A DNA stretch of 64,000 nt from Chitinophaga vietnamensis (lineage in GTDB: Bacteria > Bacteroidota > Bacteroidia > Chitinophagales > Chitinophagaceae): positions 248,001-312,000 of the forward strand of contig NZ_CABHMS010000001.1 in NCBI RefSeq assembly GCF_902167635.1, written 5' to 3'. Below, piece by piece: positions 10,062 through 27,326 of the stretch. The position numbers and the translations under genes were made by a program. The stretch's first letter is position 1; each line of letters begins with the position of its first letter. The notes beneath the pieces are model-generated. The model searched no databases. It had not been told where the DNA came from and saw only the letters and a list, made by a program, of their open reading frames with translations.

Positions 10062-10063
10062 CA

Positions 10064-10387: not shown

Positions 10388-10393
10388 CATCCC

Positions 10394-11430: not shown

Positions 11431-11451
11431 CGTCGCTGTCTGACAAAATAA

Positions 11452-11472: not shown

Positions 11473-11604
11473 AAAATATTTTTATCTCCGGATACTCCTG
11501 TTTAAATGAATATTTTTCCCGCTCTTTCTCCTCATCTTCCATCCTCATTTTTCATCTACAAGATAAAAAAGAGGCCGTTTTTTTCTAGCCACCGATCCCA
11601 AAAA

Positions 11605-11696: not shown

Positions 11697-11735
11697 GTAA
11701 AGAATCGACAACGGTTTTTTACTTAAAACAGCATT

Positions 11736-13892: not shown

Positions 13893-14292
13893 AATGCTGG
13901 CTATCGCCCAGCTGTTGTTCGCAACAAATTTACCGCCCGACAAAACTTACCGGCTGGAATTGAATGTACACAACATCATGATCAGCAAGGGCAAGATTTA
14001 TGTGGCCATCTACAACAATGAGAAGGAATTTATGAAGAATCCTTACCTGAAGAAATCCGTTCCTGTAGAGCATTTCATGTCGGAGAAGATCGTATTTGAT
14101 AACCTGCCGGAAGGAGATTATTGCGTGACCATTTACCAGGATCTGAATGAAAATGCAAAGCTGGACAAAACGCTGAACATGCCCACAGAGCCTTACGGAT
14201 TGTCCAATAATCCTAATGCCTTCCCTACTTACGAAAACACCAGGTTTCATATCAATAAAGACACTGCAATCAGAATTAAACTTAAAAATTAA
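13873..14292 (+). CDS. DUF2141 family protein
   Basis: A 139-residue exported protein. The core LNVHNIMISKGKIYVAIYNNEKEFM, then FDNLPEGDYCVTIYQDLNENAKLDKTLNMPTEPYGLSNN, is the signature of DUF2141, a beta-sandwich family found in Bacteroidota beside TonB receptors. The first 20 residues are hydrophobic and may be a signal peptide. It overlaps the receptor gene by 20 bp, so the two are translated together. The function is unknown; an envelope role alongside the receptor is inferred. Confidence 0.82.
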   Translation: MMFQIFKMLAIAQLLFATNLPPDKTYRLELNVHNIMISKGKIYVAIYNNEKEFMKNPYLKKSVPVEHFMSEKIVFDNLPEGDYCVTIYQDLNENAKLDKTLNMPTEPYGLSNNPNAFPTYENTRFHINKDTAIRIKLKN

Positions 14293-14297
14293 AACAC

Positions 14298-14981
14298 ATG
14301 AAAAGAATAATGCAAAGCCTCGCAGCCATCGTGCTGCTCCTGTCAGTTCACTTCGCCCATGCACAAACACCACAGGTAAAGCTGGACGAAAATATGGTTC
14401 CCTGTCAGAACCTCCTGAAACAGATCTTGTCCAAAACCAGGCAGATCAAGGATATCAGCGAGTTGTACAACAGCGTGAATGAATTAAAAAGAGTAGGAAA
14501 GATGTATCCGGCAGAATGGTTGCCGGACTACTACACTTCCCTGTTCGACATGAAGCTGGCACTCAGCGGTAAAGCCGACAAAAAAGATGACCTGCTGAAA
14601 GAAGCAAAAGAAAAAATAGATGCGCTCAGCAAGAATGCGGGCGCCAATGCTTCCGAAGTGGCCACCTTATCCGGCTATTACTACTATGTGATGATTGCCC
14701 TGAACCCGGAAACCAATGGGCAAAAGTATTACAAGGATGTGATCAGCAACTATCAGAAGGCGATCAACCTGGATGGTAAAAACCCGCGTCCACAGCTGCT
14801 CCTGGCCATCTTCCAAAATAATATGGCTTCCTTTATGAAAGAAAAAGACAATAATTTCTGCGCTAACCTGAAGAAACTGGAAACCGCTTTCAGTGAATTT
14901 ACGCCCAAAAGCGAAGTAGATCCCAGCTGGGGAATGGGTGAGCTGAAGAATGCACAGCGAACTTCCTGCGCCCAACAATAA
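14298..14981 (+). CDS. Secreted hypothetical protein, TPR-like helices
   Basis: A 227-residue protein with a clear signal peptide (MKRIMQSLAAIVLLLSVHFAHAQ). The mature part is helical. A segment near residues 150-175 (YKDVISNYQKAINLDGKNPRPQLLLAIFQ) looks like a tetratricopeptide repeat, which would suggest a protein-interaction scaffold in the periplasm. Two Cys residues (near the mature start and the C-terminus, TSCAQQ) could form a disulfide. It is last in the TonB-receptor operon, 5 bp after the DUF2141 gene, and is followed by a strong terminator. I do not recognise the family. Confidence 0.65.
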   Translation: MKRIMQSLAAIVLLLSVHFAHAQTPQVKLDENMVPCQNLLKQILSKTRQIKDISELYNSVNELKRVGKMYPAEWLPDYYTSLFDMKLALSGKADKKDDLLKEAKEKIDALSKNAGANASEVATLSGYYYYVMIALNPETNGQKYYKDVISNYQKAINLDGKNPRPQLLLAIFQNNMASFMKEKDNNFCANLKKLETAFSEFTPKSEVDPSWGMGELKNAQRTSCAQQ

Positions 14982-14998
14982 TTATCTCGAAAATTTTT

Positions 14999-15046
14999 AC
15001 AAGCAGAAGCCCGAAGCAGGTACGCCTGTTTCGGGCTTCTGCTTGT
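14999..15046. terminator. Bidirectional terminator between convergent genes
   Basis: A 22-bp stem with one G-T pair and loop TACG (arms 14999-15020 and 15025-15046) between the receptor operon and the converging LytTR gene. Confidence 0.85.
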
Positions 15047-15052
15047 TGGCAT

Positions 15053-15922
15053 TTAGTGTATGATCTTCTGAAACGCCGGCGCGAAGTTCCTGGAAACCGG
15101 AATAGGATTTTCGTAATCCTTCAGAATAATTTTATAACCGTTTGAATTGCCTTGTGCTGTTTTTATCTTGCTCAGGTTTACCATGAATGAACGGTGACAC
15201 CTGAAAATTGAAGCCTCATCGATCTCGTCCAGTATAGCCGTTAGCGTATTTCGTATGATGCGGGTAGTTACGTGGCCATCTTCCATGTAATAAACATGGA
15301 TATGATTTTTTACCACCTCCAGAAAAAGAAAATCATGGATAGCAATAGAGAAAGGTTTGTCTGTCGTGTTCAGTGAAGGGAACAGCAATTGCTTGTTGGT
15401 ATCAGTTTCTACTAGTGTTTCGTCACTTTGAATGATCTTGCTCAAATTATTTTTCAGTGTACGGTTGTACCTGATCATGATGATGGTAATGATGGGCAAC
15501 ATACCAACGGCAGCCGTCAGAAATAAAATATACAACATGCCTTCCAGCTTGGTAATCGTGTCTGCCACCAGGAATGACTGCGAATCGCCGATTAAAAAAA
15601 GAAAAATAAATCCATTGAAGAAAGAAATGAACAGTAATACGAACAGGATATATCCTATTTCGCTGAGGATCGTCCATCTTTTGTGATTTTTCTTTAAGAT
15701 CCTGCCCTTTAATACATAGTTACAGATAATTAAACAGATAAATGTAGCGGCGCCAAAGCATAAAGCGCCCACAATCTTGTTTTTTTCATAGTTCACAAAC
15801 CCGAATGGCTTGTATAAATAGATAATAAGGGCGATGGCAAGGCTAATAATGAGGATACTTTTGAATTTGATGGTGTCAAACGGGTACTTTCTGCTCAACA
15901 GACTTAAGATTTGGCTTAGCAT
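15053..15922 (-). CDS. Membrane-bound LytTR-domain transcriptional regulator
   Basis: A 289-residue protein. The first half has four transmembrane helices (for example IKFKSILIISLAIALIIYLY, IVGALCFGAATFICLIICN, a third near residue 100 and a fourth near 135). The C-terminal 100 residues form a LytTR DNA-binding domain (FLFLEVVKNHIHVYYMEDG, ILDEIDEASIFRCHRSFMVNLSKI, NPIPVSRNF). There is no receiver or kinase domain, so it is a one-component sensor at the inner membrane. It lies between two operons whose promoters carry similar direct repeats and is divergent from the peptide operon. It is the likely regulator of both. The signal it senses is unknown; the peptide product is one candidate. Confidence 0.88.
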   Translation of the reverse strand: MLSQILSLLSRKYPFDTIKFKSILIISLAIALIIYLYKPFGFVNYEKNKIVGALCFGAATFICLIICNYVLKGRILKKNHKRWTILSEIGYILFVLLFISFFNGFIFLFLIGDSQSFLVADTITKLEGMLYILFLTAAVGMLPIITIIMIRYNRTLKNNLSKIIQSDETLVETDTNKQLLFPSLNTTDKPFSIAIHDFLFLEVVKNHIHVYYMEDGHVTTRIIRNTLTAILDEIDEASIFRCHRSFMVNLSKIKTAQGNSNGYKIILKDYENPIPVSRNFAPAFQKIIH

Positions 15923-16035
15923 ATGGGATCAAAGGTTTAGTATATAGGAACAAACACTGCTGTTAAGATAATATATTTTGATTGGAAAATACGTAATTCA
16001 TCCTATAAACTATCAGCTCATAAAACAGCGCAGAC

Positions 16036-16102
16036 GTTCGTCACAAACTCCTAGTTGTTCGTCATAAGGTATTGTTTTTCAGTTATTTGCATTGGATATT
16101 TG
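16036..16102 (+). promoter_or_regulatory. LytTR-type direct repeats and promoter of the peptide operon
   Basis: GTTCGTCACAA (16036-16046) and GTTCGTCATAA (16057-16067) are 10/11 identical direct repeats exactly 21 bp apart, two helical turns. TTG at 16072-16074 and GATATTTG at 16095-16102 (one base off TAnnTTTG at each of the first two positions) with a 20-nt gap form a weak -33/-7 pair. The repeats end 4 bp upstream of the -33 element, the position expected for a class II activator helping a poor promoter. Confidence 0.65.
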
Positions 16103-16121
16103 CTTCATAATCGTTCAGCAA

Positions 16122-16529
16122 ATGAAAACAAAAAACGATACCGGAATCTCTTCAGTTTTTTATCGGGTCACACAAGGTGAGGCCAGGTTAGAAACATTAA
16201 TTAATCAGGTTAATAGTACCGCCTTACCTGCCGCCGAGAAATATGCTTACCAGGCATTTTGTTGCGCCATGCTGGCAAAAAGCACCAGTGGCATGTTGCA
16301 GAAAGGTAAATATATACAGCAGTATGGTGTTTTCATTGAAAAAGCAATGGCGATTAAAAATACCTGCTATGAAGCCCGCCTGTTCCGCTTCCTCGTTGAG
16401 CAAAAACTGGAACATGTCAAGTTTACCAGTCATATAGAACAGGACCGCAGCTTTTTGCAGGATCAGGTGAATCATGTGCAGGACGACTATTTAAAGGAGT
16501 TGACGTTTAAAGCACTGGAAAATGAATAA
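16122..16529 (+). CDS. Small hypothetical protein heading the biosynthetic operon
   Basis: A 135-residue protein from the ATG at 16122 (MKTKNDTGISS); an upstream TTG in frame overlaps the promoter. It is all-helical by appearance: AYQAFCCAMLAKSTSG, LQKGKYIQQYGVFIEKAM, then CYEARLFRFLVEQKL and IEQDRSFLQDQVN. The pattern (AK, a Leu/Tyr helix, ExRxLRF, IExDRxFL) resembles a small Bacteroidota protein of unknown function that I associate with acyl-biosynthesis gene clusters, but I cannot name it. It overlaps the AMP-ligase gene by 8 bp, so it is coupled to it. Confidence 0.65.
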   Translation: MKTKNDTGISSVFYRVTQGEARLETLINQVNSTALPAAEKYAYQAFCCAMLAKSTSGMLQKGKYIQQYGVFIEKAMAIKNTCYEARLFRFLVEQKLEHVKFTSHIEQDRSFLQDQVNHVQDDYLKELTFKALENE

Positions 16530-17925
16530 CGAATCATTCCTGTATCCATTCACCGCCTATCCAAATGGCATGATCATCAACGTGCCGCAATCAAAGGCCT
16601 ACAGCTACCAGGCTTTCTATGGCCTCGTAACAGCGATGGCCGGCGATCTGGAACAGCTGCACCTCGCGAAACACAGCGTGATCGTTATCTATGGATACAA
16701 GAATTCTTTCAAAGCACTGTTGTTATTTTTTGCGTGTATCAAATGCGGTTACATTCCTTTTATAGTGGAAGCCGCCAGCATGGCGAAAATAACAGACCTG
16801 AAATTCAATGGGGTCTTCTCCGATGAAACACTGACAGGCGGCCAGTTTGAGACCGCCACACGCACCACCATCGGCGGAGAGCAGTTCTATTATAATATCC
16901 ATCCCGAAGTATATATAGGAGATGAAAATGACCTGTTGATCGTTTCCAGTTCCGGCAGCACTTCCAAAGTGCCGAAGAAGATACTGCTTGGTAAAACGCA
17001 AACCATTACCAATATCAGGTCTAACCAGGAAGCATTATCTATTACAGAGAAAGATGTAACGCTGCTGTTGCTGCCTGTTTCCTACTCCTATGGCCTGATT
17101 GCGCAGTTCCTGTCGCACTTCTTTTCCGGCGCCACCATCGTTTTAGGGGAAAGGTTGCTGAGCGTATTGCAACTGCCGGAGCTGCTGGTGAAATACCGTG
17201 TTACCAATGTGTTCATGACACCGCTGCTGGCCAGGCTGATACTGTATTATAATCAACATACCAAACAGATTGGCAACAGCCTGAGATTTATCACGCTGGG
17301 CGGCGACAAGCCACAGGCCCAAACATTGCGAAAAATATATGCGCTGTTCGCCTGTCCGATTTATGGCACCTATGGCCTGGCAGAAGCCGGTCCACGCGTA
17401 GCCACCTATAAATTTATGGAGCTGCTGTCTGAACAGGAAGAATGGTGCATCGGCGATATCAATCCCGGTATTTCTGTAGAAGTGCAGCGGGAGAAAAAAT
17501 ACGAAGAGATGTACCAGGGGATTAATATAGGATACCTGTCTATCAGAAGCCCTTCCATCTACCTTGGATATATCAAAGGCAATAAATTAAAGAAGACGCC
17601 TTCCCCGCAGGTACTACGCACAAAAGATATCTGCATCGAAAAAGGTAAAAGGTTCTATCTGCTGGGAAGAGAAGATGATTTCATCATCTATAAAGGAAAG
17701 ATCATCTGGTTCTATAAACTGAGCCGCGATCTGTATGAAACACCGGGGATACTGAAAATAACGATCCGCAAGAATGCCGGCGATGTGCTGGAGATCAAGA
17801 TCTTTCACAGGAATGTGATTTCAATAACAGGAATACAGGATGTGCTGAATAAAAAGTATGATTTGAAGTATGGCGTTAACTATCATATCAAATTGATGGA
17901 ATTTAATAATACCCACTACAAATGA
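16522..17925 (+). CDS. AMP-dependent acyl ligase (ANL superfamily)
   Basis: A 467-residue adenylate-forming enzyme. The phosphate loop is SSSGSTSKVPKK near residues 141-152 (consensus SGSTGxPK, with Ser-Lys in place of Gly). It has the aromatic/Glu motif YGTYGLAEAG near residue 285 and the hinge LLGREDDFIIYKG near residue 382. The C-terminal lid is short and ends in NNTHYK, so the usual catalytic A10 Lys, if present, is the last residue. It most likely activates a carboxylic acid as acyl-AMP and loads it on the carrier protein as a starter unit, as AMP ligases do in aryl-polyene pathways. The substrate is unknown. It overlaps its neighbours on both sides. Confidence 0.82.
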   Translation: MNNESFLYPFTAYPNGMIINVPQSKAYSYQAFYGLVTAMAGDLEQLHLAKHSVIVIYGYKNSFKALLLFFACIKCGYIPFIVEAASMAKITDLKFNGVFSDETLTGGQFETATRTTIGGEQFYYNIHPEVYIGDENDLLIVSSSGSTSKVPKKILLGKTQTITNIRSNQEALSITEKDVTLLLLPVSYSYGLIAQFLSHFFSGATIVLGERLLSVLQLPELLVKYRVTNVFMTPLLARLILYYNQHTKQIGNSLRFITLGGDKPQAQTLRKIYALFACPIYGTYGLAEAGPRVATYKFMELLSEQEEWCIGDINPGISVEVQREKKYEEMYQGINIGYLSIRSPSIYLGYIKGNKLKKTPSPQVLRTKDICIEKGKRFYLLGREDDFIIYKGKIIWFYKLSRDLYETPGILKITIRKNAGDVLEIKIFHRNVISITGIQDVLNKKYDLKYGVNYHIKLMEFNNTHYK

Positions 17926-18527
17926 TCACCATCTATGTAAGCGATACCCTGCCGGAAATGCCGGAGAAAAAGTGGTTGTTAATAAAACGCTTTTTCAACG
18001 ACAAGATACTCGATCGCCTGGAAAAGTCGCCCGGAGATACTTACAGGCTAAGGCGTTTCACCTCCCGGCTGATGTTGATACAGATATTTGAAGACCTTGG
18101 CATCAGCCTGCAACACCTGGGCAGCCTCTGTTATAACAGCTTTGGCAAACTGGTAGTAAAGCCGCTTACTTACAACATATCCATTTCATATAGCGGTGAT
18201 AAAACAGTTTGCCTGGTGAGCGACGACAGAGCAGGACTGGATGTAGAAGACATACAAAAGGAACCCGGGCCCCGGCACGTGAATCTGCTGGAACAACTGA
18301 CCGCCACCATCATCAAGGACCGCATTGACTTTTACTGCCTATGGACGAAGATGGAATCTATTGCCAAGATATATGAAGATAAAGGACTGGCCGCTGTTAT
18401 ATATGATCCCGAAGCGCGCGAAAAACATTACACACAACAATTTTTGCTTCAACAAAAATACATGATATCAGTTGCTGCAACAAAAGCATTCGACATTGCT
18501 GTACCTATAAAACTACTACATGTATGA
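17922..18527 (+). CDS. 4'-phosphopantetheinyl transferase (Sfp-like)
   Basis: A 201-residue enzyme that attaches the phosphopantetheine arm of CoA to a carrier-protein Ser. The Mg-binding motif GLDVEDI places Asp107 and Glu109 as in Sfp. WTKMESIAK (residues 141-149) is the second signature, W-x-x-K-E-[AS]-x-x-K, here with Met for Lys. FGKLVVKPLTYNISISYSGD is the CoA-contacting segment. A dedicated transferase in the operon means the downstream carrier protein is meant to be activated locally. Overlaps both neighbours by 4 bp (ATGA). Confidence 0.88.
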   Translation: MITIYVSDTLPEMPEKKWLLIKRFFNDKILDRLEKSPGDTYRLRRFTSRLMLIQIFEDLGISLQHLGSLCYNSFGKLVVKPLTYNISISYSGDKTVCLVSDDRAGLDVEDIQKEPGPRHVNLLEQLTATIIKDRIDFYCLWTKMESIAKIYEDKGLAAVIYDPEAREKHYTQQFLLQQKYMISVAATKAFDIAVPIKLLHV

Positions 18528-18973
18528 TCGCTACAAACTTTGATAACCTGAACCCCGTGGCCCTGCTGCCGCACAGAGCGCCGATGTTGTTGGTAGATAA
18601 AGTAGTACACACCGATTTTGATAAAAGTATTACCGTGGAAACTACCATCGATAAAGACTCCTTTTTCATGAGAGGCCACTTTCCCGGTTACCCGCTTTTG
18701 CCCGGTGTGATCATCATCGAAATGATGTTTCAGGCCTGCGGTATCCTGAACAGGGTTTCCAGTAGTGAACAGTCGCAACAGGAGCCACGGACACGCATCG
18801 GCAAGGCGGTGAAGGTAAAATCAGCCGTGTTTTCGAAAGAGGTATTGCCCGGCTCCGTGCTAAGGATCACCGCAGAAAAAGTGCATAGCCTCTTCCATTT
18901 CAGCGAGTATAAAGTTACCGCTAGCGTTGCAGGTAAAAATGTTTGTAAAGCAGAACTCACCTTATCTATTTGA
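18524..18973 (+). CDS. Hotdog-fold 3-hydroxyacyl-ACP dehydratase (FabZ-like)
   Basis: A 149-residue dehydratase. LLPHRAPMLLVDKV is the N-terminal FabZ motif. GHFPGYPLLPGV supplies catalytic His52, and IIIEMMFQACG supplies Glu66. It removes water from 3-hydroxyacyl-ACP to give a trans-2-enoyl chain. With no enoyl reductase in the operon, the double bond would persist through later cycles. It overlaps the transferase gene by 4 bp. Confidence 0.9.
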   Translation: MIATNFDNLNPVALLPHRAPMLLVDKVVHTDFDKSITVETTIDKDSFFMRGHFPGYPLLPGVIIIEMMFQACGILNRVSSSEQSQQEPRTRIGKAVKVKSAVFSKEVLPGSVLRITAEKVHSLFHFSEYKVTASVAGKNVCKAELTLSI

Positions 18974-18975
18974 TC

Positions 18976-20154
18976 ATGGAACAGCATAACAAAATATTCG
19001 TAACCGGTTTGGGCAGCATATCTGCACTGGGATATGGCGCAGATGCAGCATGGCAAAGCATCCTGGAGGGTAACAGCCGTATCAGTATAAAAGACAACTG
19101 GCAGAACACTAAAATAAAACCACAGTTTTTTGGCGAGGCCGTTGACGTGGCTTTTGAAGAAGAAGTGAAATGGGATGAACGCTTTGCCCCGCAACTCTAC
19201 TCCAGACTGGGCATACTGGCTTGCAAAAAAGCGCTGGAAGATGCGCAGATCGTGTTGGAAAGTTCGGATAATGAAATAGGGCTGATCATCGAAACCAGCC
19301 TGGGCGCTACTGCCGCTGTAGAGGATTATCTCTATGACCTATACCAGCACGGCCTGGCGAAGGTAAGCCCGCTTAAATTCACTAAAACCGTTGCCAACAC
19401 TGTATTGGGCGATATTTCAAGAACGTTTAAGCTCAACGGCCCCAGCTCGCTGATATACAATTCCAATAGTATCAGCTATGGTATTGATCTGATCAGGAAA
19501 GGAGTGGCGGATATTGTTATCTGCGGTGGTGTGGATCATTACACCGAGTTCAGGGTGCTGAGCGAACAGGAAAATGGCCGTCTCATCAGCGTAAGCGGAG
19601 ATGAAAACCGCCACCAGGCTATTGTAGATGCCGCTGAACAGGAACGCAATGTATTGGGCGATGGCGCTGCATTCATCGTACTGGAAAGCGAAGAAAGCGC
19701 CTTGAAAAGAGGCGTCAGGAAATACGCCGAGATCGTAGAATATCATAGCGGCTTCGACTATCATCATGTAGAGGATACCACCCGGCGGTCGGCGCACATT
19801 ATCGAGAACGCCTATACGAAATTCAAACCGGTTATCCATCCCGGGGAAAAGGTGGCCTACCTGAGCGCCTACACTACCAGCCGGCAGTTACAGCACAGCG
19901 AGCAACCTGTACTGGAAAAAATGGAAAAGGAAAATCCTGCATACCGCCTTTGTCATAAAGCATATACCGGCGATATGAAAGCTGCCAGCTCCGTGATGGG
20001 CGCCAGTATTGCCAGCCAGATATTACATGGTGGCCTGTTTCCGGTGAAAGAAGCATCCGGCAGCTATCCCACCGGAATTACATATGCCTTTGTTAGTACC
20101 GCGCATGAAGGCGGCGGCAGCTCACACCTCATTTTTAAACAAACCACACTTTAA
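18976..20154 (+). CDS. Catalytically dead ketosynthase homologue (chain-length-factor-like)
   Basis: A 392-residue thiolase-fold protein starting at the ATG 18976, two bases after the dehydratase stop. It keeps the fold landmarks VTGLGSISALGYG, GLIIETSLGA and VICGGVDHYTEF. All three ketosynthase active-site residues are gone: the Cys position in GPSSLIYNSNSISYG reads Asn164, the NAHGTGT His region reads LSAYTTSRQ, and the KxxxGHxxGAAG loop reads HKAYTGDMKAASS. This is the pattern of a chain-length factor that pairs with an active ketosynthase in type II polyketide and aryl-polyene systems. The active partner is the second ketosynthase at 20928. Confidence 0.85.
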   Translation: MEQHNKIFVTGLGSISALGYGADAAWQSILEGNSRISIKDNWQNTKIKPQFFGEAVDVAFEEEVKWDERFAPQLYSRLGILACKKALEDAQIVLESSDNEIGLIIETSLGATAAVEDYLYDLYQHGLAKVSPLKFTKTVANTVLGDISRTFKLNGPSSLIYNSNSISYGIDLIRKGVADIVICGGVDHYTEFRVLSEQENGRLISVSGDENRHQAIVDAAEQERNVLGDGAAFIVLESEESALKRGVRKYAEIVEYHSGFDYHHVEDTTRRSAHIIENAYTKFKPVIHPGEKVAYLSAYTTSRQLQHSEQPVLEKMEKENPAYRLCHKAYTGDMKAASSVMGASIASQILHGGLFPVKEASGSYPTGITYAFVSTAHEGGGSSHLIFKQTTL

Positions 20155-20164
20155 CTGTACAGCT

Positions 20165-20914
20165 ATGAAAAACATTTTTATCACAGGCGGCTCCAAAGGT
20201 ATTGGGAAGGAGTTAGTCAGGGCATTCGCCCACAAAGGGCAACAGGTGTTTTTTACCTATCAGTATTCTGTTGCAGGCGCCGAAGCGCTGGTAGCGGAGC
20301 TCAAAGCAGCAGGGTTCGAAAATGTGCAGGCATTTAAATGTGATATGGGCAACGAAGAAGAAGTGAAACAGCTATTCAAAACAAACCGGGAGCTATTGAA
20401 AGATATTGATGTATTGATCAATAATGCCGGTATCAGAGATAGTAAACTGAACGCTAACCCAAAACCGTTTATCATGACCTCTTCAAAAGAATGGTGGGAA
20501 GTAATGCACAATAACATCAATGGTGTGATGAACACCTGTCGGGCCGTGCTTCCTGCGATGATAAAGAAAAGAAGCGGCCGCATTATCAATGTCACTTCCC
20601 TGGCTGGTATCAAAGGCAACCCGGGACAGTCGGCCTACGCCTCTTCCAAAGCGGCTATCAATTGCTTCTCCAAGTCATTATCGAAAGAAGTGAGCGGAAT
20701 GGGCGTTACGATCAACTGTGTGGCGCCAGGATTCATAGAAACAGAAATGGTGGAGAACCTGCCGGATAAATACATCAACGACAGAGTAGGGCATAGCTTG
20801 TTGAAAAGACTGGGCACTACAGCAGAGATATCTAACCTCATCACGTACCTGGCACTGGAAGCCCCGGGCTTTTTGATCAACCAGGAGATTGTTATCGATG
20901 GAGGCATGAACTAA
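20165..20914 (+). CDS. 3-oxoacyl-ACP reductase (FabG-like SDR)
   Basis: A 249-residue short-chain reductase starting at ATG 20165 (MKNIFITGGSKGIGKEL); a longer upstream reading overlaps the previous gene and is rejected. The NADPH motif GGSKGIG, the NNAG motif and the catalytic triad Ser145, Tyr158, Lys162 (SAYASSKAA) are present, and the end has the family-typical LINQEIVIDGGMN. It reduces the 3-keto group formed by the ketosynthase pair. It lies 10 bp after the chain-length-factor-like gene and 13 bp before the active ketosynthase. Confidence 0.9.
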   Translation: MKNIFITGGSKGIGKELVRAFAHKGQQVFFTYQYSVAGAEALVAELKAAGFENVQAFKCDMGNEEEVKQLFKTNRELLKDIDVLINNAGIRDSKLNANPKPFIMTSSKEWWEVMHNNINGVMNTCRAVLPAMIKKRSGRIINVTSLAGIKGNPGQSAYASSKAAINCFSKSLSKEVSGMGVTINCVAPGFIETEMVENLPDKYINDRVGHSLLKRLGTTAEISNLITYLALEAPGFLINQEIVIDGGMN

Positions 20915-20927
20915 AAAAACTGATCAC

Positions 20928-22139
20928 ATGAAAAAGAGAGTAGTAATAACAGGTATCGGCGCAATATCGTCTTTGGGAAATAATATAGAAGAGATGCTGG
21001 AGAGCTTGTCTGGCGGGAAGATCAGGTACGACGTGATCCCGGGCGAACGTTTCTCTACCAGTCATAAATTATTTGCCAATAACCGCGGCTTCATGATGGA
21101 CCAGTCATCCTACATGAATGCCTGGGAAAAAGATGCCTCTATCATGAGCGAGGTAGCGACGGCCTGTATAGATGAGGCCTTGCAGAAAGCAGATCTGTCC
21201 AGGGAGGCTTTGCAGCAATACACCACGGGCCTGTGCCTGGGAACCTCTGTGGGCGCCAGTTTCCCGATCCTGCAACGCATCCGGAAATCGGTATACGAAC
21301 AGGAAGATGATTATGAGCTGGCCTTGTATTCCACACCGAAGATACTGGGCAAGATAGCGCGTGCGTTCAAATTGAGCGGGTATGTTTCTGCTATCTCCAC
21401 GGCCTGTGCGTCCGGCACTAACTCTATAGGAAGAGCCTTTGACCTGATCGAAAACGGGAAGGCGGATGTGATGATCAGCGGTGGCATCGACATCTTCACA
21501 GAGCTTACCTATACTGGCTTTAACTCACTGCTGGCCATCTCCAAAACAAAATGTAAACCTTTCAGTAATACCAGGGATGGTATGTCCTTAGGCGATGCCT
21601 GCGCCATCCTGATACTGGAAAGCCTTGATACGGCGCTCGCACGCGGCGCGCATATCTATGCGGAAATAAAAGGTTATCACATATTGAATGAAGCCTACCA
21701 TGCTACCGCGCCGCATCCGGAAGGCAAGTACGCCCTGAAGTGCATGAAAGCGGCCATGGACTATGCGCAGATCGATATTGCAGAAGTAGATTATATCAAT
21801 GCTCATGGCACAGGCACCAGCAAGAACGACGGGGCAGAGCTGAATGCCTGTAAAAGCTTGCTGGCAGGCAAAGAAGGGCCTACGTATGTTGGCTCCACCA
21901 AATGCCTGACCGGCCACACCCTCGGCGCCGCCGGCAGCATTGAAGCTATCATCAGCATACTGAGCATCCATCATAATACCCTGTATGCCAGCTATGAAGA
22001 TACCGACCTGCCAGGCGTGGACAATATACATTTCGTTACACAGAATATAGCCGATGTGCGCATCAGAACTGTACTCTCCAACTCATTCGGTTTCGGTGGC
22101 AATATGGCCAGCATATTATTATCTCATTACAAAAATTAA
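20928..22139 (+). CDS. Active beta-ketoacyl-ACP synthase (FabF-like)
   Basis: A 403-residue ketosynthase with an intact triad: Cys160 in STACASGTNSIG, His293 in INAHGTGTSKNDGAE and His330 in STKCLTGHTLGAAG. The C-terminus ends with SNSFGFGGNMASILL, as in FabF. It performs decarboxylative Claisen condensation of malonyl-ACP with the growing chain. Together with the inactive homologue upstream it would form the heterodimer expected of type II PKS and aryl-polyene assembly lines. Confidence 0.93.
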   Translation: MKKRVVITGIGAISSLGNNIEEMLESLSGGKIRYDVIPGERFSTSHKLFANNRGFMMDQSSYMNAWEKDASIMSEVATACIDEALQKADLSREALQQYTTGLCLGTSVGASFPILQRIRKSVYEQEDDYELALYSTPKILGKIARAFKLSGYVSAISTACASGTNSIGRAFDLIENGKADVMISGGIDIFTELTYTGFNSLLAISKTKCKPFSNTRDGMSLGDACAILILESLDTALARGAHIYAEIKGYHILNEAYHATAPHPEGKYALKCMKAAMDYAQIDIAEVDYINAHGTGTSKNDGAELNACKSLLAGKEGPTYVGSTKCLTGHTLGAAGSIEAIISILSIHHNTLYASYEDTDLPGVDNIHFVTQNIADVRIRTVLSNSFGFGGNMASILLSHYKN

Positions 22140-22151
22140 AAAAATTACAAC

Positions 22152-22427
22152 ATGGAAAATCAAAACATTGAACTGAAAGTAAAAGAAATCCTGATCAGCG
22201 TATTGAACCTCAGGAAAACAGCAGATCAGCTAAGCGCCGACCAGCCGCTGTTCGGGACAGATGATAACCCCGGTCTTTTCGACGACTCGCTGGCGGTACT
22301 GGAAGTAACCTCTGTGCTGATGGCAGAATTTGACCTCGAAGCATCCGTATTCAGCGAAGGCAGCTTCCGCACCATCGGCACGCTGGTAGCCTGCATAGAA
22401 AACGCGAAACAGGCAGCAATGGCATAG
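22152..22427 (+). CDS. Acyl carrier protein
   Basis: A 91-residue acidic carrier protein. Ser46 in GLFDDSLAVLEVTSVL is the phosphopantetheine site (DSL motif, one residue off the usual DSLxxVEL). Helix 1 (KVKEILISVLNLR) and helix 4 (TIGTLVACIENAK) are recognisable. It begins 12 bp after the ketosynthase stop and is the only carrier in the operon, so chain starting, growth and hand-over presumably all run on it. The peptide array follows 58 bp downstream. Confidence 0.9.
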   Translation: MENQNIELKVKEILISVLNLRKTADQLSADQPLFGTDDNPGLFDDSLAVLEVTSVLMAEFDLEASVFSEGSFRTIGTLVACIENAKQAAMA

Positions 22428-22485
22428 TAAAATATCACTATAAAAAACCTTCATTTTTTTTATTCACACTTAAAACTTCAAACAC

Positions 22486-22584
22486 ATGAACACACTGAAC
22501 ATCGTATCCCTGGAAGAAAGATTCGAACTGTCAGGAGCCGCTGAAAACGCTTCTATCGAAATCGGATCTGTAGTAATTCTTTAA
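22486..22584 (+). CDS. Precursor-like peptide 1
   Basis: A 32-residue peptide: the 18-residue conserved start MNTLNIVSLEERFELSGA followed by AENASIEIGSVVIL. The start region has the look of a recognition leader (alternating hydrophobic and acidic residues ending in a small-residue pair GA). The tail is hydrophobic and alternates like a beta strand. The tail has no Lys or Cys; the only nucleophiles are the new N-terminal amine after cleavage, Ser23 and Ser28. The function is inferred from position between the acyl-assembly genes and two enzymes with peptide-recognition-like domains. Confidence 0.8.
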   Translation: MNTLNIVSLEERFELSGAAENASIEIGSVVIL

Positions 22585-22620
22585 TCATTTTTTTTATTCA
22601 CACTTTAAAACTTTAAACAC

Positions 22621-22719
22621 ATGAACACACTGAACATTGTATCCCTGGAAGAAAGATTCGAACTGTCAGGAGCCGCTGAAAACGCTTCTATCGAAATCGG
22701 TACCGTAGTAATTCTTTAA
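22621..22719 (+). CDS. Precursor-like peptide 2
   Basis: A 32-residue copy identical to peptide 1 except that residue 28 is Thr instead of Ser (tail AENASIEIGTVVIL). The DNA around it is a near-exact duplication of unit 1, including the AAACAC before the ATG. That only a core residue differs, while the leader is untouched, fits a precursor family with a conserved recognition part. Confidence 0.8.
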   Translation: MNTLNIVSLEERFELSGAAENASIEIGTVVIL

Positions 22720-22753
22720 TCATTTTTTTATTCACACTTAAAACTTTAAACAC

Positions 22754-22852
22754 ATGAACACACTGAACATCGTATCCCTGGAAGAAAGATTCGAACTGTC
22801 AGGAGCCGCTGAAAATGCTTCTATCGAAATCGATCACGTAGTAATCCTCTAA
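22754..22852 (+). CDS. Precursor-like peptide 3
   Basis: A 32-residue copy with the same 18-residue start and tail AENASIEIDHVVIL, so Gly27-Ser28 of peptide 1 become Asp-His. The invariant Ala-Ser-Ile at residues 22-24 is kept. It is the last of the three almost identical tandem units. Confidence 0.8.
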   Translation: MNTLNIVSLEERFELSGAAENASIEIDHVVIL

Positions 22853-22878
22853 TCCCTAACAATTAAAAACGTAAAACA

Positions 22879-22980
22879 ATGAACACCCTTAACATCGTAT
22901 CCCTGGAAGAAAGATTTGAACTGTCAGGCGCAATGGCCGAAGAAGCGTCTATTCACATCGGTACAGTAGAAATCCTTTAA
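22879..22980 (+). CDS. Precursor-like peptide 4
   Basis: A 33-residue peptide with the same start MNTLNIVSLEERFELSGA but tail MAEEASIHIGTVEIL. One residue is inserted after the conserved Ala, and Glu-Glu replaces Glu-Asn; Ala-Ser-Ile is kept. It is preceded by a different spacer (AACGTAAAACA) than units 1-3. The tail still lacks Lys and Cys. Confidence 0.8.
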   Translation: MNTLNIVSLEERFELSGAMAEEASIHIGTVEIL

Positions 22981-23010
22981 TCTATTTATCAACCCTTAAA
23001 ATCTGGTAAC

Positions 23011-23115
23011 ATGAACACTTTAAACATCGTATCTCTCGAAGAGAGGTTTGAACTGTCAGGTGCAATGGCCGAAGAAGCATCTATCCATATAGATACTGTC
23101 ATCGTTGTATTGTAA
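23011..23115 (+). CDS. Precursor-like peptide 5
   Basis: A 34-residue peptide with the identical 18-residue start at the protein level but several silent DNA changes (CTCGAAGAGAGG in place of CTGGAAGAAAGA), which points to purifying selection on the leader. The tail is MAEEASIHIDTVIVVL, again with Ala-Ser-Ile and no Lys or Cys. A perfect hairpin follows at 23141-23167. Confidence 0.8.
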   Translation: MNTLNIVSLEERFELSGAMAEEASIHIDTVIVVL

Positions 23116-23140
23116 TCTAATTTATCGCTTCCTTATCAAT

Positions 23141-23167
23141 ACCAGGGATGGCGCTCCCATCCCTGGT
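23141..23167 (+). terminator. Perfect hairpin between peptide 5 and peptide 6
   Basis: An 11-bp perfect stem (ACCAGGGATGG and its complement) with loop CGCTC. It is followed by an A-rich, not T-rich, stretch, so it is more likely an attenuator or RNA-processing/stability element than a full terminator. It begins 26 nt after peptide 5. Confidence 0.6.
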
Positions 23168-23182
23168 TCTAAAAAAAATACA

Positions 23183-23305
23183 ATGGAAACACTGAACATT
23201 ATTCAACTGGAAAACAGGCTTGAACTGTCTGCTACCACAGAAAGCCCGTCCAACACATTGCCTGTAGAAGGCCCAAAGCCCATCCAGGTACCGCAAGCGG
23301 TATGA
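23183..23305 (+). CDS. Divergent precursor-like peptide 6
   Basis: A 40-residue peptide whose start METLNIIQLENRLELSA clearly matches the leader of peptides 1-5 (TLNI, LE-R-ELS). The tail TTESPSNTLPVEGPKPIQVP then AV is entirely different: proline-rich, with one Lys and no Ala-Ser-Ile. It lies between two hairpins. It may be a distinct substrate of the same enzymes, a decoy or regulatory peptide, or a decaying copy. The ATG at 23183 is chosen from the leader match; a longer in-frame reading overlaps the hairpin. Confidence 0.7.
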   Translation: METLNIIQLENRLELSATTESPSNTLPVEGPKPIQVPQAV

Positions 23306-23317
23306 TGGCGCCCTTTT

Positions 23318-23353
23318 AAAAGTACCGGTGGTGCTTTTATCACTGGTACTTTT
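23318..23353 (+). terminator. Intrinsic terminator/attenuator between peptides and tailoring genes
   Basis: A 13-bp stem (AAAAGTACCGGTG, 23318-23330, with 23341-23353, one G-T pair), a 10-nt loop and a T-rich tail TTTTAATTATT. Partial read-through here would give abundant peptide mRNA and less enzyme mRNA. It also argues that the M50 gene starts downstream at 23385. Confidence 0.75.
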
Positions 23354-23384
23354 AATTATTATCACTATTCAACTTGATATACAC

Positions 23385-24593
23385 ATGCATTCCGGTCAGC
23401 AAATAACAGGAAATAATATACTGGGTTATCATTATGAAGCCTTGCACATTTCGCCTAATGAGTTCATTTTATCTTATAACCAAAAGTATTATAAGATCGG
23501 TGAATCTATTTACCAGATATTGAAAGCCGGCAGTGTGGCGCATAACATGGATGAAATGCACCGCATGATCAACGACGTGCTGCCTATTTCCAGGCCGGAT
23601 CTGGAAGAGATCATAGACGCTAAAATATTGCCCGTGTTCAGGGCGGCTGAAAACCCGGTGGCAGACAGGAGTTCCGGCTTCTGGGTAAAACGGCAGATAT
23701 TGACGGCAGATCAGATCACCGCATTGACTACGCCATTACGCTGGCTGTTCGGAAAGATATTCTACCCCCTGTTCTTTTTTATTTGTTTCGTGAATGTATG
23801 GATGTACCGCCAGTCGCCGGCGGATACTAGCGGCGCTTTTCTTCCGGATAATGAAGTAGCCACCTGGTTTATTTCTTATGCGGCATTGTTTGTAATCATT
23901 TTTTTACACGAATTGGGGCATGCTGCAGCCGCCGTGAAATCCGGTATCCGTGCAAGAAATATCGGGCTGGGATTTTATACGGTATTGCCGGTGATGTACA
24001 CCGATCTTACCGATACCTGGAAGCTCGGAAAATACGATAAGGTGAAAATCAATATGGGCGGAATTTTCATGCAACTGATCGTGAACCTCTTGCTGATGGC
24101 GCTGATAAAGATACGCCCGCAGGATGCGGTGACGGCCATGTCGTGGAAGATCTATGTAGTGAATAATTTCATCATCATCATGAACCTGGTTCCTTTCATG
24201 AAATTTGATGGATACTGGGTCGTATCTGACCTGACAGGCATCCCCAATATGGTGAAAGAGTCCAACCGCTTACTGATAGATGCCGTTACCCGGAAAGGGC
24301 CATTCCCGGAGGAAGACCAGCTTACGCTTCATTACGCGCAGAAAATATTTCTCTATATATATACCGTGTTACGTGTGCTGTTCATTGGCAGTGTTATTTT
24401 CTCTGCATTTGCTTTCATTTATTATTCTGTCTGTAAAACGATCTTGCTGATCAAGTATCTCCCTTACCTGGAACTGAATTTTACCGTAGTGGTGGAGCTG
24501 CTCAAGCGCATCGCTACCATTGTTATCATATTCCTGTTTACGAGGAAGTATAGGAAAATGTTTTTCAGGTTTATCTTAAAAAAAGCAAAATGA
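23385..24593 (+). CDS. M50 membrane zinc metalloprotease with N-terminal PqqD-like domain
   Basis: A 402-residue membrane protein; the ATG at 23385 is preferred over a GTG at 23328, which lies inside the terminator hairpin. Residues about 10-90 (ISPNEFILSYNQKYYKIGES, then YQILKAG, then RPDLEEIIDAKILP) have the strand-strand-winged-helix pattern of PqqD-type RiPP recognition elements. The protease part has HELGH (175-179) and NLVPFMKFDGYW (Asp275), the site-2-protease motifs, among about six transmembrane helices. Such fused M50 proteins occur in peptide-maturation loci (YydH type). It is the likely leader-cleaving protease. Its stop overlaps the hydrolase start (ATGA). Confidence 0.85.
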   Translation: MHSGQQITGNNILGYHYEALHISPNEFILSYNQKYYKIGESIYQILKAGSVAHNMDEMHRMINDVLPISRPDLEEIIDAKILPVFRAAENPVADRSSGFWVKRQILTADQITALTTPLRWLFGKIFYPLFFFICFVNVWMYRQSPADTSGAFLPDNEVATWFISYAALFVIIFLHELGHAAAAVKSGIRARNIGLGFYTVLPVMYTDLTDTWKLGKYDKVKINMGGIFMQLIVNLLLMALIKIRPQDAVTAMSWKIYVVNNFIIIMNLVPFMKFDGYWVVSDLTGIPNMVKESNRLLIDAVTRKGPFPEEDQLTLHYAQKIFLYIYTVLRVLFIGSVIFSAFAFIYYSVCKTILLIKYLPYLELNFTVVVELLKRIATIVIIFLFTRKYRKMFFRFILKKAK

Positions 24594-25339
24594 TACAACA
24601 CATTAACAAACACCATTCGGAATGCCTGGTGTTCTTTAACCCGCTTTGTTCCGATAACTGCTTCTGGAAAAAAAATATTCCGGAAGAGCTGGTAGAGCGA
24701 TTTGAGGTGATCTTGTTTGACTACCCGGGTTACCATTCCCCTTTTGTAAAACTGAATAATTTTAGTGAAGTAGCCGGCTATGTGAGAAGAGAACTGTTAG
24801 GCAAGATCAACAAACCCATGCACCTGATCGGCTACAGCTATGGCGGGCTCCTGATCCAGCACCTGTTGCGCGATACTTACGATAACCTGGCCTCTGTGAT
24901 ATTGGTGGCCTGCGCCAACAAGCTGGCAGCAAGAGATAAAGAGATATTGTCGGTGCTGAAAGGCCTGGCAGAAAATGACCTGTACCTGTTCTGCCGCGCG
25001 CTGACACTGTTTTCTCACAAACCGGCAGAAGTGAACAACAACCCGCTGATGGGACTACAGAAATTTTCTAATCTGAAGCTCTCCGTTACCGACAGCCAGG
25101 CGATTGTACAACAGATCAATCATATCCTGCAGCTGTCCAGTATCCAGCTGCCGAAACAAACGACCAATACCCTGCTGATCTATGGAGAAGAAGATCGTTT
25201 GATAGATACCACTACCATCAGCCAGTTCCGGTCTTACTTCGAGAATTTCAGTATGGTGGAGATGCCCGGTGAATCCCATATTGTAGACCAGGACCAGCTA
25301 TTTCATCATGTTACTGAATTTTTAAAATTACAATCATGA
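24590..25339 (+). CDS. Alpha/beta hydrolase (thioesterase-like)
   Basis: A 249-residue hydrolase with the triad Ser83 (GYSYGG elbow), Asp202 (YGEEDRLI) and His230 (GESHIV). FDYPGYHSPF is the oxyanion strand region. In this setting it may be an editing thioesterase that clears stalled chains from the carrier protein, or a hydrolase that releases or trims the acylated product. No signal peptide is present, so it acts in the cytoplasm. It overlaps both neighbours by 4 bp. Confidence 0.8.
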   Translation: MIQHINKHHSECLVFFNPLCSDNCFWKKNIPEELVERFEVILFDYPGYHSPFVKLNNFSEVAGYVRRELLGKINKPMHLIGYSYGGLLIQHLLRDTYDNLASVILVACANKLAARDKEILSVLKGLAENDLYLFCRALTLFSHKPAEVNNNPLMGLQKFSNLKLSVTDSQAIVQQINHILQLSSIQLPKQTTNTLLIYGEEDRLIDTTTISQFRSYFENFSMVEMPGESHIVDQDQLFHHVTEFLKLQS

Positions 25340-26475
25340 ATCATCAACAGTTACGCCTGGAAATTTATGAAGAGCAGCGTTCCTTGTTAAAAACATATGT
25401 TGACAAAAAATGGGATACCCATGATCTGAAGAATTACCATTTTCTGTCTGCCAATTTATCAAAGTGTTTGCCCGCAATAGGAATGGATCAGCACAAAGCG
25501 ATCTATCATGATATCCTTTCCTATCGCGTGTTACAGAGCATTGATACCCGTTTCTACGAACACTTTGACCACATTGATGATTTTGGAGATTTCAATTATG
25601 AAGAGATAAAGACACAGCTGCCTGCGATTTTCGTTTCCTTTCACCTGGGCTCGTTCCGGTCGGCATTGGCTTTCCTCGTGAAGTATCATTTGGATGTTGT
25701 GCTCATCATAGACCCGCTGCCTTATAATACCCAGAAAGATACCATCATAGCACAATATGAAGCCATGAAGCAAAGCTTCGGCTCCAGCTCAGACCTGGTT
25801 ATCTATCCGGCAGACAAGCAAGACCTTTCTGTTCAATTGCTGGACAAGATCGGCAAGCAATATTCTGTGCTGGCTTTTGTAGATGGCAATACCGGTTTTA
25901 ACGGCGCCTTTAACCAGAAGAAAAGCCTGAAGCTCCCTTTCCTGGGTCAGGAAATAGCCATCAGGAAAGGATTGGCCATGCTGGCTTATTACGCAGGAAG
26001 ACCTGTTATCCCTATGCTTTCCTTTTACGACGATCAGCTGAAGCCAAGATGGAAAGTGTTTGATCCGATCATCCCTGACAGAACAAAGGGGGCAGATGAT
26101 TTTTCCAGGGATTGCCTGCAAAAGCTCTTTGCCATATTGGAGGGCGCATTGAAGCAATATTACGCACAATGGGAAGGATGGATCTACCTGCACAAGTTTA
26201 TGGATATATCCGTATTTGAACAGGCCGGCATTGATGAACCTGTGAACGACGATGGCCGTGAGCTGGCAGTGAATCCGAATGCGGGATTCTTTTCGTTTGA
26301 TGAACATTACTATATCCTGAACAAAGAAAATTACCGGATACTGGAAATTACTGCGCAGGTTTTTCTTAATTTGCTGTCAGGAAAAACTGATAGCAACACC
26401 ATCGAAGCGGCAGATCGTACTTTTTTACTATCTAATGGCATCTTGAAAAACCCTACCCGATATGAGAACAATTGA
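25336..26475 (+). CDS. LpxL-like acyltransferase with C-terminal PqqD-like domain
   Basis: A 379-residue protein. The N-terminal 300 residues resemble lipid A lauroyl/myristoyl acyltransferases: FHLGSFRSALAFL matches the catalytic HxxxxE block, with His103 present but the acidic residue replaced by Arg108. FVDGNTGFNG and LPFLGQEIAIRKGLAMLAYYAGRPVIPM match the later blocks. No N-terminal membrane helix is evident. Residues about 313-375 (FSFDEHYYILNKENYRILEI, then FLNLLSGK, then FLLSNGILK) read like a PqqD-type peptide-binding winged helix. The best reading is transfer of an acyl chain from the carrier protein onto the peptides. Homologues that act in aryl-polyene lipid assembly are an alternative. 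Confidence 0.8.
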   Translation: MNHQQLRLEIYEEQRSLLKTYVDKKWDTHDLKNYHFLSANLSKCLPAIGMDQHKAIYHDILSYRVLQSIDTRFYEHFDHIDDFGDFNYEEIKTQLPAIFVSFHLGSFRSALAFLVKYHLDVVLIIDPLPYNTQKDTIIAQYEAMKQSFGSSSDLVIYPADKQDLSVQLLDKIGKQYSVLAFVDGNTGFNGAFNQKKSLKLPFLGQEIAIRKGLAMLAYYAGRPVIPMLSFYDDQLKPRWKVFDPIIPDRTKGADDFSRDCLQKLFAILEGALKQYYAQWEGWIYLHKFMDISVFEQAGIDEPVNDDGRELAVNPNAGFFSFDEHYYILNKENYRILEITAQVFLNLLSGKTDSNTIEAADRTFLLSNGILKNPTRYENN

Positions 26476-27211
26476 CCAAAGATGGCTCAGGATTGCCATC
26501 TACTTTGTAATTGCGCTTTCCTCCTCTTTTCTGTTCAGGTTAAATTTGATTGGCAGTTATGATAACTGGAAGCTGCCAGGCATCCTCTCACTTTATAAAG
26601 GCTGGCTGGAAGGAGCGGGCCCCTTCCTTGGCGCGCTGATAGTTACCTGGCTATTCCGCAGGAAGAGCGAGATGAGCTTCACCGGTATCCTGGGCTCCAG
26701 GAGCTGGCTGATGATGGGCCTTCCGGTATTGCTGCTGCTGATTGTTGGCGTAAATAATGATCAGCAGATCAATCCGCATGTATATGGCCTGAACATGGGT
26801 ATCTGGATCGTAGTATACGGTATCCTGGAAGAAACCGGCTGGCGTGGTTATTTGCAGGATGAATTGAAAGATTATCATCCCGCCTGGAAATATGTGATCG
26901 TAGGCATTTTCTGGTATACCTGGCATCTTACTTTCCTCGGTCATACCAATGTGGTAAATGAACTGGCTATTTTAGCCATACTCATTTTCGCCAGCTATGG
27001 CATTGGCGTTATCGCAGACAGAACGAAATCCATCATTGCAGCAGGTTGTTTTCATATTATCGGGAATATCATGGGCCTCAGCACCGAGATGCAGAAAGCC
27101 TTGTCTATGCAAACAAGGATATGGATACTGTTGGCCTGTGTGCTGGGCTGGGTGCTGTTGATCAGGAATGCGCGGCGGCGTAAAATGGTGGAAGAGCTGA
27201 ATAAGATCTAG
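26462..27211 (+). CDS. CPBP-family intramembrane protease
   Basis: A 249-residue protein with about seven transmembrane helices. The CPBP (Rce1/Abi-like) motifs are EETGWRGYLQDEL near residue 122, FWYTWHLTFLGH near 152 and GCFHIIGNIMG near 196, supplying the Glu-Glu, His and His/Asn of the active site. Such proteins process prenylated or peptide substrates, and many sit in bacteriocin loci as maturation or self-immunity factors. It overlaps the acyltransferase by 14 bp and closes the operon before the hairpin at 27235. Leader cleavage or immunity are both possible. Confidence 0.85.
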   Translation: MRTIDQRWLRIAIYFVIALSSSFLFRLNLIGSYDNWKLPGILSLYKGWLEGAGPFLGALIVTWLFRRKSEMSFTGILGSRSWLMMGLPVLLLLIVGVNNDQQINPHVYGLNMGIWIVVYGILEETGWRGYLQDELKDYHPAWKYVIVGIFWYTWHLTFLGHTNVVNELAILAILIFASYGIGVIADRTKSIIAAGCFHIIGNIMGLSTEMQKALSMQTRIWILLACVLGWVLLIRNARRRKMVEELNKI

Positions 27212-27234
27212 CATATCATCCTTCATAATATAAT

Positions 27235-27263
27235 ACAGCATCCGTTATCATGGCGGGTGCTGT
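27235..27263 (+). terminator. Terminator of the biosynthetic operon
   Basis: Arms ACAGCATCCG and CGGGTGCTGT (one G-T pair), 9-nt loop, followed by GCCGTTTTATATA, 24 bp after the CPBP stop. Confidence 0.65.
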
Positions 27264-27326
27264 GCCGTTTTATATATCCGCGATTTTTCGTAATATTTGT
27301 TATCGCTTGATGTTAAAGCAATACAC

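Follow-up and report, generated by a model that had tools for sequence, protein, structure and literature searches.

The question raised by a locus of Chitinophaga vietnamensis is why the genes of a type II acyl line should share one operon with a row of short peptides that carry a common leader. The locus lies in a 64,000-nucleotide stretch of contig NZ_CABHMS010000001.1 (positions 248,001 to 312,000), here termed the window, and coordinates are those of the window unless another locus is named. The answer favoured here, with a probability of about two in three, is that the cluster makes a fatty-acylated ribosomal peptide. An initial annotation of this DNA had proposed such a product, and it is supported by comparison at the sequence level, namely by the gene set, its recurrence in other genomes, the link between acyltransferase and peptides, and the type of protease; the acyl chain presumably ends on the peptide.

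The genes named in the initial annotation, said to lie on one strand and mostly to overlap, form a single operon (16092-27211, + strand) in a genome of 6.3 Mb, and 7 of the 10 junctions between adjacent non-peptide genes overlap by 4-14 bases (Table 1). The pair of one active and one inactive ketosynthase is also as described: the active-site Cys is present in KSa (STACASG) and replaced in KSb (YNSNS). The ketoreductase is the only reductase seen among the operon genes; an enoyl reductase was not found.

The five near-identical peptides and the variant are likewise present. Peptides 1-5 have in common the leader MNTLNIVSLEERFELSG. Their 17 leader codons show up to 9 synonymous differences and no non-synonymous one; the leader is under purifying selection and the peptides are genuine genes. 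A DNA pattern of the leader (EER(F/L)EL-like codons) has 6 sites across the 6.3 Mb genome, of which the peptide block holds 5; the reversed control pattern has 1. No NCBIfam model matched the three peptides submitted. The core tails differ between copies. Lys and Arg are absent from five of the six cores; the claim that the peptides have no Lys thus holds for five, and the variant has one. Cys is absent from all six peptides, and no hydrophobic N terminus was found on reading the sequences. With gene-encoded precursors, a conserved leader, a variable core and maturation enzymes alongside, the locus has the make-up of a system for a ribosomally synthesized and post-translationally modified peptide (RiPP).

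The acyltransferase ties the locus to others. An alignment-based scan of a genome collection with this enzyme yielded 43 named loci (designated by L numbers); a single-protein scan of genome contigs yielded nothing. Homologs are uncommon, being present in 17 of 394 genomes of the family and 8 of 395 of the phylum, the window counted. Co-occurrence with the peptides, which the initial annotation had put forward as a check, was examined with a held-out leader matrix whose seeds were the window and strain Hp32 peptides only and whose threshold was set by hand. It matches 15 of 49 other acyltransferase loci, several of which are close relatives of each other. In the 0.90 Mb of these 49 loci it found 35 short open reading frames (ORFs), every one on the acyltransferase strand, 34 of them within 4.2 kb of the acyltransferase, and 34 leader-like (the exception is L072 4075). 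Shuffled sequence gave 13 matches in 9.0 Mb, or about 1.3 expected for 0.90 Mb, and 29 FabF control loci gave none, in only 0.12 Mb.

A broader matrix, with seeds drawn partly from the same loci, finds a leader ORF in 26 of 45 loci (the window, L036 and L037-L079). Uncontrolled inspection by eye shows a short ORF with Cys directly 5' of the acyltransferase in 13 further loci and none in L070; it took in all but five Larkinella loci (L054, L056, L057, L059 and L073). Three other Larkinella loci have similar Cys-Cys ORFs directly 5' of the acyltransferase that the leader matrix does not match (L050 9635-9877, L052 9754-9951, L055 9626-9877). Among seven more distant acyltransferase loci, leader matches were found in two, and none in L088, L089, L090, L093 and L094 (the acyltransferase of L094 was not placed).

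The acyl line recurs together with the peptides. Galbibacter marinus (L038) and Chryseobacterium (L039-L041) have the order dehydratase, KSb, ketoreductase, KSa, acyl carrier protein (ACP), peptides, M50 protease, arginase-family enzyme, hydrolase, acyltransferase. L039-L041 also have a match to the AMP ligase; L038 begins within the ligase region. A Lewinella metagenome-assembled genome (L043) has the same ketosynthase, ketoreductase, dehydratase, ACP, ligase, M50, arginase and acyltransferase genes with three peptides, rearranged so that ligase, dehydratase and KSb are 3' of the acyltransferase, and with no hydrolase match. There are two to four leader peptides per locus in Galbibacter, Chryseobacterium and Lewinella. 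The window phosphopantetheinyl transferase has no similarity match in L038-L041 or L043, though L038-L041 have some gene at the same place. Flavobacteriaceae strain Hp32 (L037), with an acyltransferase 53-55% identical, shows three peptides, M50 protease, hydrolase, acyltransferase and CPBP protein; its contig begins directly 5' of the peptides, and the acyl line is not visible there. Hydrolase homologs stand directly 5' of the acyltransferase in L037-L041 and L130. L037 has a CPBP homolog, and L038 and L039 have genes of the CPBP family.

Other ketosynthase sets with acyltransferase and leader peptides are found in Saprospiraceae (L044, L051) and in a locus of the window's own genus (L036). 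The latter shows leader peptides, a daptide-like M50 protease, ketosynthase genes, a distant acyltransferase and a TonB receptor (3845-19501). It also has a flexirubin FlxA ammonia-lyase and an FlxY ligase, above cut-off, and after the acyltransferase a grasp-with-spasm-type ATP-grasp protein (224.6 bits, cut-off 230) and a SPASM protein (137.4, cut-off 175).

The initial annotation had held that acyl operons regularly lacking the peptides would refute its reading. A KSb profile, which includes the window's own KSb, was run on the best 4 candidates per genome (best 12 in the Chryseobacterium-genus scan). The window alone rose above the FabF background among the 394 family and 395 phylum genomes. 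Of 148 genomes of the Chryseobacterium genus (that of C. angstadtii), 4 were positive: L039, two that apparently correspond to L040 and L041, and one new (L130). All four carry the acyltransferase, M50 protease, hydrolase, arginase, TonB receptor and four leader peptides, and no KSb-type acyl operon without peptides was seen among those genomes, a small sample. By score, and not gene by gene, matches in a further 79 genomes of the family (1e-40 to 1e-46) were taken for housekeeping FabF and set aside, as they fall far short of the 1e-186 to 1e-191 of true relatives. A viral-contig scan with KSb found no relative.

These findings bear on an alternative that is unlikely yet has to be weighed, namely that one operon yields two products: a polyene, free or anchored to lipid, from the acyl line, and independently of it the peptides, as a signal or in the manner of a bacteriocin. 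The parts list of the window is close to that of aryl polyene clusters: a ketosynthase and Cys-less partner, ketoreductase, dehydratase, ACP, acyl ligase, hydrolase and acyltransferase. In the aryl polyene line, ketosynthase and chain-length-factor partner extend the chain, and a lysophospholipid acyltransferase, ApeD, is proposed to transfer it to a lipid anchor (PMC8253772). The window hydrolase could serve as a thioesterase, the role proposed there for ApeK. The cluster described there has no peptides, however, whereas the window has six. The acyltransferase family adjoins short peptides even where no ketosynthase is nearby, and the KSb-type line has yet to be met apart from peptides in the genomes scanned. 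No RND exporter or Lol-like protein, features of aryl polyene clusters, is among the Pfam matches of the scanned operon proteins, a search that did not take in the remaining genome. As for flexirubin clusters, the flexirubin SDR model scores 182 on the window ketoreductase, with a cut-off of 340.

The cluster extends beyond the operon. The upstream genes for a TonB receptor, a DUF2141 protein and a protein here called p227 were compared over ten loci (L036-L041, L043, L044, L051 and L130). Full-length TonB receptor homologs (28-32%) are found in seven of the ten (L036, L038-L041, L043, L130), DUF2141 homologs in seven (L038-L041, L044, L051, L130), and p227 homologs in seven (L036, L038-L041, L043, L130). 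None of the three was found in 9 kinase-linked and 5 short FabF loci searched alike. This recurrence, with none in the control loci, indicates that the genes at 11736-14981 belong to the cluster. Thus the extent first given, 16122 to 27211, is right for the operon and too short for the cluster, which reaches upstream to 11736. Between the TonB module and the operon, the opposite strand encodes a membrane-bound LytTR protein (15053-15922), a candidate cluster regulator.

Where might the acyl group be attached? With core positions numbered from the last Ser, Thr or Ala of the leader, Ser occupies +7 in four of the window peptides and in three from Hp32; the remaining two window peptides have it at +8. 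Relatives have Cys at +7 in six compact peptides (L065, L072, L077, L091), Arg-Cys at +8/+9 in the Galbibacter, Chryseobacterium and Lewinella cores, and Cys at +13 in nine longer cores of loci that have the acyltransferase without a ketosynthase (L042, L046, L048, L049, L053, L058, L062, L067, L074). In many of these nine a Pro-rich PPxPPG-like tail follows. Within each branch, with exceptions, Ser or Cys keeps a fixed distance from the leader; of the 56 distinct leader-bearing cores, 39 bear one of the two residues in the range +7 to +9. Among the exceptions, L036 and L061 lack Cys, and in L092 and the Saprospiraceae peptides the Cys lies further along.

Strong matches to the arginase-family enzyme coincide exactly with Arg-Cys at +8/+9, six loci in all (L038-L041, L043, L130), and L070 has a weak one. 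No match was found in the window, and none in the DNA searched of the Saprospiraceae loci, though Arg-Cys lies further on there. This protein has an extra N-terminal part and lies in the operon (L038 7932-9155; L043 8553-9851), and it is a candidate peptide arginase. Elsewhere in RiPPs, peptide arginases convert Arg to ornithine, which can be acylated (PMC12703449). On the basis of the Ser and Cys positions in the cores and the pairing of arginase with Arg-Cys loci, we propose that the putative acylation site is Ser in the window and Cys or ornithine in relatives.

We infer as follows how the parts would work together: that the acyl group is transferred to the peptide, that Ser is its site, that the chain is unsaturated, in what order the steps run and what the surface module does. 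The AMP ligase would load a starter acid onto the ACP, itself activated by the phosphopantetheinyl transferase, and the chain would be extended by the KSa/KSb pair, the ketoreductase and the dehydratase. The chain probably stays unsaturated, given that the operon shows no enoyl reductase. The LpxL-like acyltransferase would then move it from the ACP to the leader-bearing peptides. The most likely acceptor there is the Ser that each of the six peptides has 7 or 8 residues past the last Ser of the leader, where many relatives have Cys. Leader removal would fall to the M50 protease, and the TonB/DUF2141/p227 module may act on the product at the cell surface.

The LpxL likeness claimed for the acyltransferase holds for the family, in which 32 of 38 members match Pfam Lip_A_acyltrans at E up to 1 (best 2.9e-11). 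His103, Gly105, Gly212 and a QWExW motif are invariant in the 38 aligned members, Asp183 is kept in 37 and Arg210 in 35. A search of solved structures returned nothing for the window enzyme and chance-level matches only for the family profile. The C-terminal 75 residues resemble the N-terminal domain of the M50 protease at 42% in a profile comparison, where 60 column shuffles do not exceed 0.9%, nor ten other blocks 1.2%; the M50 N terminus in turn compares with that of the arginase at 28%. Pfam PqqD matches 3 of 13 M50 homologs at E up to 1 (best 0.0014). PqqD-like leader-recognition domains are common, though not universal, on RiPP enzymes, and both acyltransferase and M50 protease may carry one.

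Several observations weigh against an acylated peptide as the product. The window acyltransferase taken alone gives E 0.019 with Lip_A_acyltrans, below cut-off, so that its LpxL likeness is weak by itself. LpxL-type enzymes carry an HX4(D/E) catalytic motif; here the motif is HX4R in 35 of the 38 members, HX4K in three and HX4(D/E) in none, and the enzyme of L036, outside the 38, reads HX4Y. With the motif so altered, acyltransferase activity is not assured. A thiol or amine acceptor could dispense with the motif acid, which is guesswork. Pfam PqqD matches none of the 38 members, so the PqqD-like C terminus rests on the 42% profile match, and the same C terminus against the arginase N terminus gives 0.2%, no match. 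As for the acceptor, 17 of the 56 distinct cores have neither Ser nor Cys at +7 to +9, and the second peptide of L072 has neither anywhere in its core. Finally, relatives linked to a kinase (see below) have no nearby ketosynthase, and the acyltransferase therefore need not use a dedicated chain.

The altered motif can be looked at in another way: the LpxL-like protein might be a leader-binding partner rather than a working acyltransferase, with the hydrolase moving the chain, if any is moved. Arg or Lys at this motif position in all 38 members and an invariant QWExW motif, which is not known from LpxL enzymes, fit that view. Little weight can be given to it, nevertheless, as the conserved His103, Gly212, Asp183 and Arg210 are kept as a working active site requires, and the hydrolase was matched in only L037-L041 of the 43 named loci, with no match in L043 or the kinase-linked loci.

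The nearest NCBIfam models of the M50 protease are the daptide protease (9.5e-27; 94 bits, curated cut-off 300) and epipeptide LiaK (1.2e-15; 58 bits, cut-off 225), both below cut-off. HExxH is kept in 13 of 13 aligned homologs, and against solved structures the profile finds site-2-type proteases (best 0.0024). Daptide and epipeptide operons also have an HExxH M50 family membrane protease, whereas their modification enzymes were not seen in the window operon. The products of both are peptides. A peptide serving as scaffold only, from which the protease frees a small acyl-amino-acid product in pearlin fashion, is very unlikely: TglG and TmoG, M50 proteases, do free a modified last residue from scaffold peptides (PMC10885120), and several near-identical precursors would suit a scaffold used in quantity, but the nearest protease models point to peptide products, and the core tails vary between copies, as those of a pure scaffold need not.

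The acylated-peptide reading can be set beside known lipidated RiPPs. In microvionin and other lipolanthines, goadvionins and lipoavitides a lipid chain is joined to a ribosomal peptide, as is proposed for the window. The initial annotation had set its product apart from lipolanthines, goadvionins and selidamides, and this distinction stands. Lipolanthines and goadvionins use a lanthionine synthetase together with a large polyketide synthase. Neither a lanthionine synthetase nor a GNAT nor a modular polyketide synthase is among the operon proteins scanned.

In selidamides (phaeornamide and kamptornamide, also nostolysamides) a GNAT acylates the side chain of Lys or ornithine with chains from primary metabolism (PMC9505594). 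The likeness lies in a ribosomal peptide with a fatty acyl group and in the arginase, present for phaeornamide and, as an arginase-family enzyme, in relatives of the window; the window differs in its LpxL-like enzyme and dedicated type II line. A selidamide was considered as the window product and rejected, as there is no GNAT, no arginase match and no core Arg; six relatives do have core Arg and arginase. N-terminally acylated lanthipeptides are also acylated by GNATs (PMC13060382). DAG-RiPPs, known from Bacteroidota among others, bear lipid on a Cys placed by a signal sequence and the lipoprotein pathway (PMC12636315). They have a signal peptide with a lipobox Cys, whereas Cys is missing from the window peptides, in which no signal sequence is evident. 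Prenylated lanthipeptides are a further kind named in the literature. Acylated lanthipeptides, selidamides and DAG-RiPPs each have a defining feature that the window lacks. Among the open-access matches listed, as extracted, no LpxL-like enzyme or type II acyl line is described in a RiPP operon, most subscription papers being outside that scope. Lipidated RiPPs are already known, and the enzyme type, the acyl source and the leader family look new.

The remaining features of the region are collected in Table 1. Hairpin sites in the region number 21, against 10.8 in shuffles.

Table 1. Features of the cluster and its surroundings (window coordinates; family matches with E-values)
Feature	Position	Strand	Family match or remark
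TonB-dependent receptor, carboxypeptidase-regulatory-like N domain	11736..13892	+	NCBIfam SusC/RagA N part only 4.7e-18, below cut-off
DUF2141 protein	13873..14292	+	Pfam DUF2141 5e-25
p227, function not assigned	14298..14981	+	homologs only, E 4e-3 to 2e-14
Membrane protein with C-terminal LytTR	15053..15922	-	Pfam LytTR 8e-17
145-aa ORF	16092..16529 (ATG at 16122)	+	no family match in Pfam or NCBIfam
AMP-forming acyl ligase, putative starter loading	16522..17925	+	Pfam AMP-binding 9e-31; closest NCBIfam model AmcH acyl-ACP ligase 1e-34, below cut-off
Phosphopantetheinyl transferase	17922..18527	+	NCBIfam AusB 3.5e-11, below cut-off; no Pfam match
FabZ-like dehydratase	18524..18973	+	Pfam FabA 6e-20; NCBIfam fabZ 1.5e-30, below cut-off
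KSb, Cys-less ketosynthase, chain-length-factor-like	18970..20154	+	Pfam ketoacyl-synt N domain only, 7e-20
FabG-like ketoreductase	20165..20914	+	Pfam adh_short 1e-59; NCBIfam 3oxo_ACP_reduc 1e-66, below cut-off; ATG counted at 20165, family scan from 20168
KSa, active ketosynthase	20928..22139	+	Pfam KS N and C domains 1e-30
Acyl carrier protein	22152..22427	+	Pfam PP-binding 0.028 and NCBIfam 3.6e-5, both below cut-off; DSL motif
Precursor peptide 1, 32 aa	22486..22584	+	
Precursor peptide 2, 32 aa	22621..22719	+	
Precursor peptide 3, 32 aa	22754..22852	+	
Precursor peptide 4, 33 aa	22879..22980	+	
Precursor peptide 5, 34 aa	23011..23115	+	
Variant precursor peptide 6, 40 aa	23183..23305	+	ORF listing begins at earlier TTG, 23105
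Hairpin, 18-pair stem, candidate attenuator	23316..23355	+	boundary of peptides and processing genes
M50 intramembrane protease, candidate PqqD-like N-terminal domain	23385..24593	+	Pfam Peptidase_M50 2e-10
Alpha/beta hydrolase	24590..25339	+	Pfam 6e-12
LpxL-like acyltransferase	25336..26475	+	C-terminal PqqD-like candidate domain about 26250-26475
CPBP (Rce1-like) membrane protein	26462..27211	+	Pfam Rce1/CPBP 8e-12
Terminator-like hairpin	27234..27264	+	3' of operon

Of interest also are relatives in which the acyltransferase is followed by a histidine kinase and a LytTR regulator. These make up 20 of the 43 named loci (L045-L049, L053, L058, L060-L065, L067, L072, L074, L076-L079), mostly with a short Cys-bearing peptide ORF 5' of the acyltransferase. 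KSa has no match in any of the 20, and the M50 protease is present in five (L049, L061, L065, L072, L077). In agr-like peptide quorum sensing a peptide, a protease, a histidine kinase and a LytTR regulator occur together; the AgrA model on one of the regulators gave 1.4e-7, below cut-off. In Parapedobacter (L078 and L079, 9739-9879) a hydrophobic ORF of 46 aa, whose one Cys is close to its end, lies directly 5' of the acyltransferase and kinase pair. In a tree of the acyltransferases the acyl-line and kinase-linked enzymes are split by a branch with 98/91 support, with ten rows outside both groups. Support for the core acyl-line clade is 98/93; L036, L091 and L092 form long branches whose placement is unsure.

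The sensor genes hint at cell-to-cell signalling, and their arrangement suggests a candidate peptide signalling system. A wider view, tentative and rather doubtful as yet, is that of a lipidated-peptide family across Bacteroidota whose LpxL-type acyltransferases have a leader-binding domain of their own. One branch, that of the window, would have a dedicated line for an unsaturated chain; another would carry out acyl-peptide quorum sensing with a peptide, an acyltransferase, sometimes an M50 protease, a histidine kinase and a LytTR regulator. The window branch may keep a signalling role.

The LpxL-like enzyme fold is not known to act on targets other than lipids. If the acylated-peptide reading is true, there would be a further route for acylating ribosomal peptides, in which a type II acyl line feeds a genetically encoded peptide and both halves of the lipopeptide could be changed by gene editing; and the kinase-linked relatives would be a candidate peptide signalling system for Bacteroidota.

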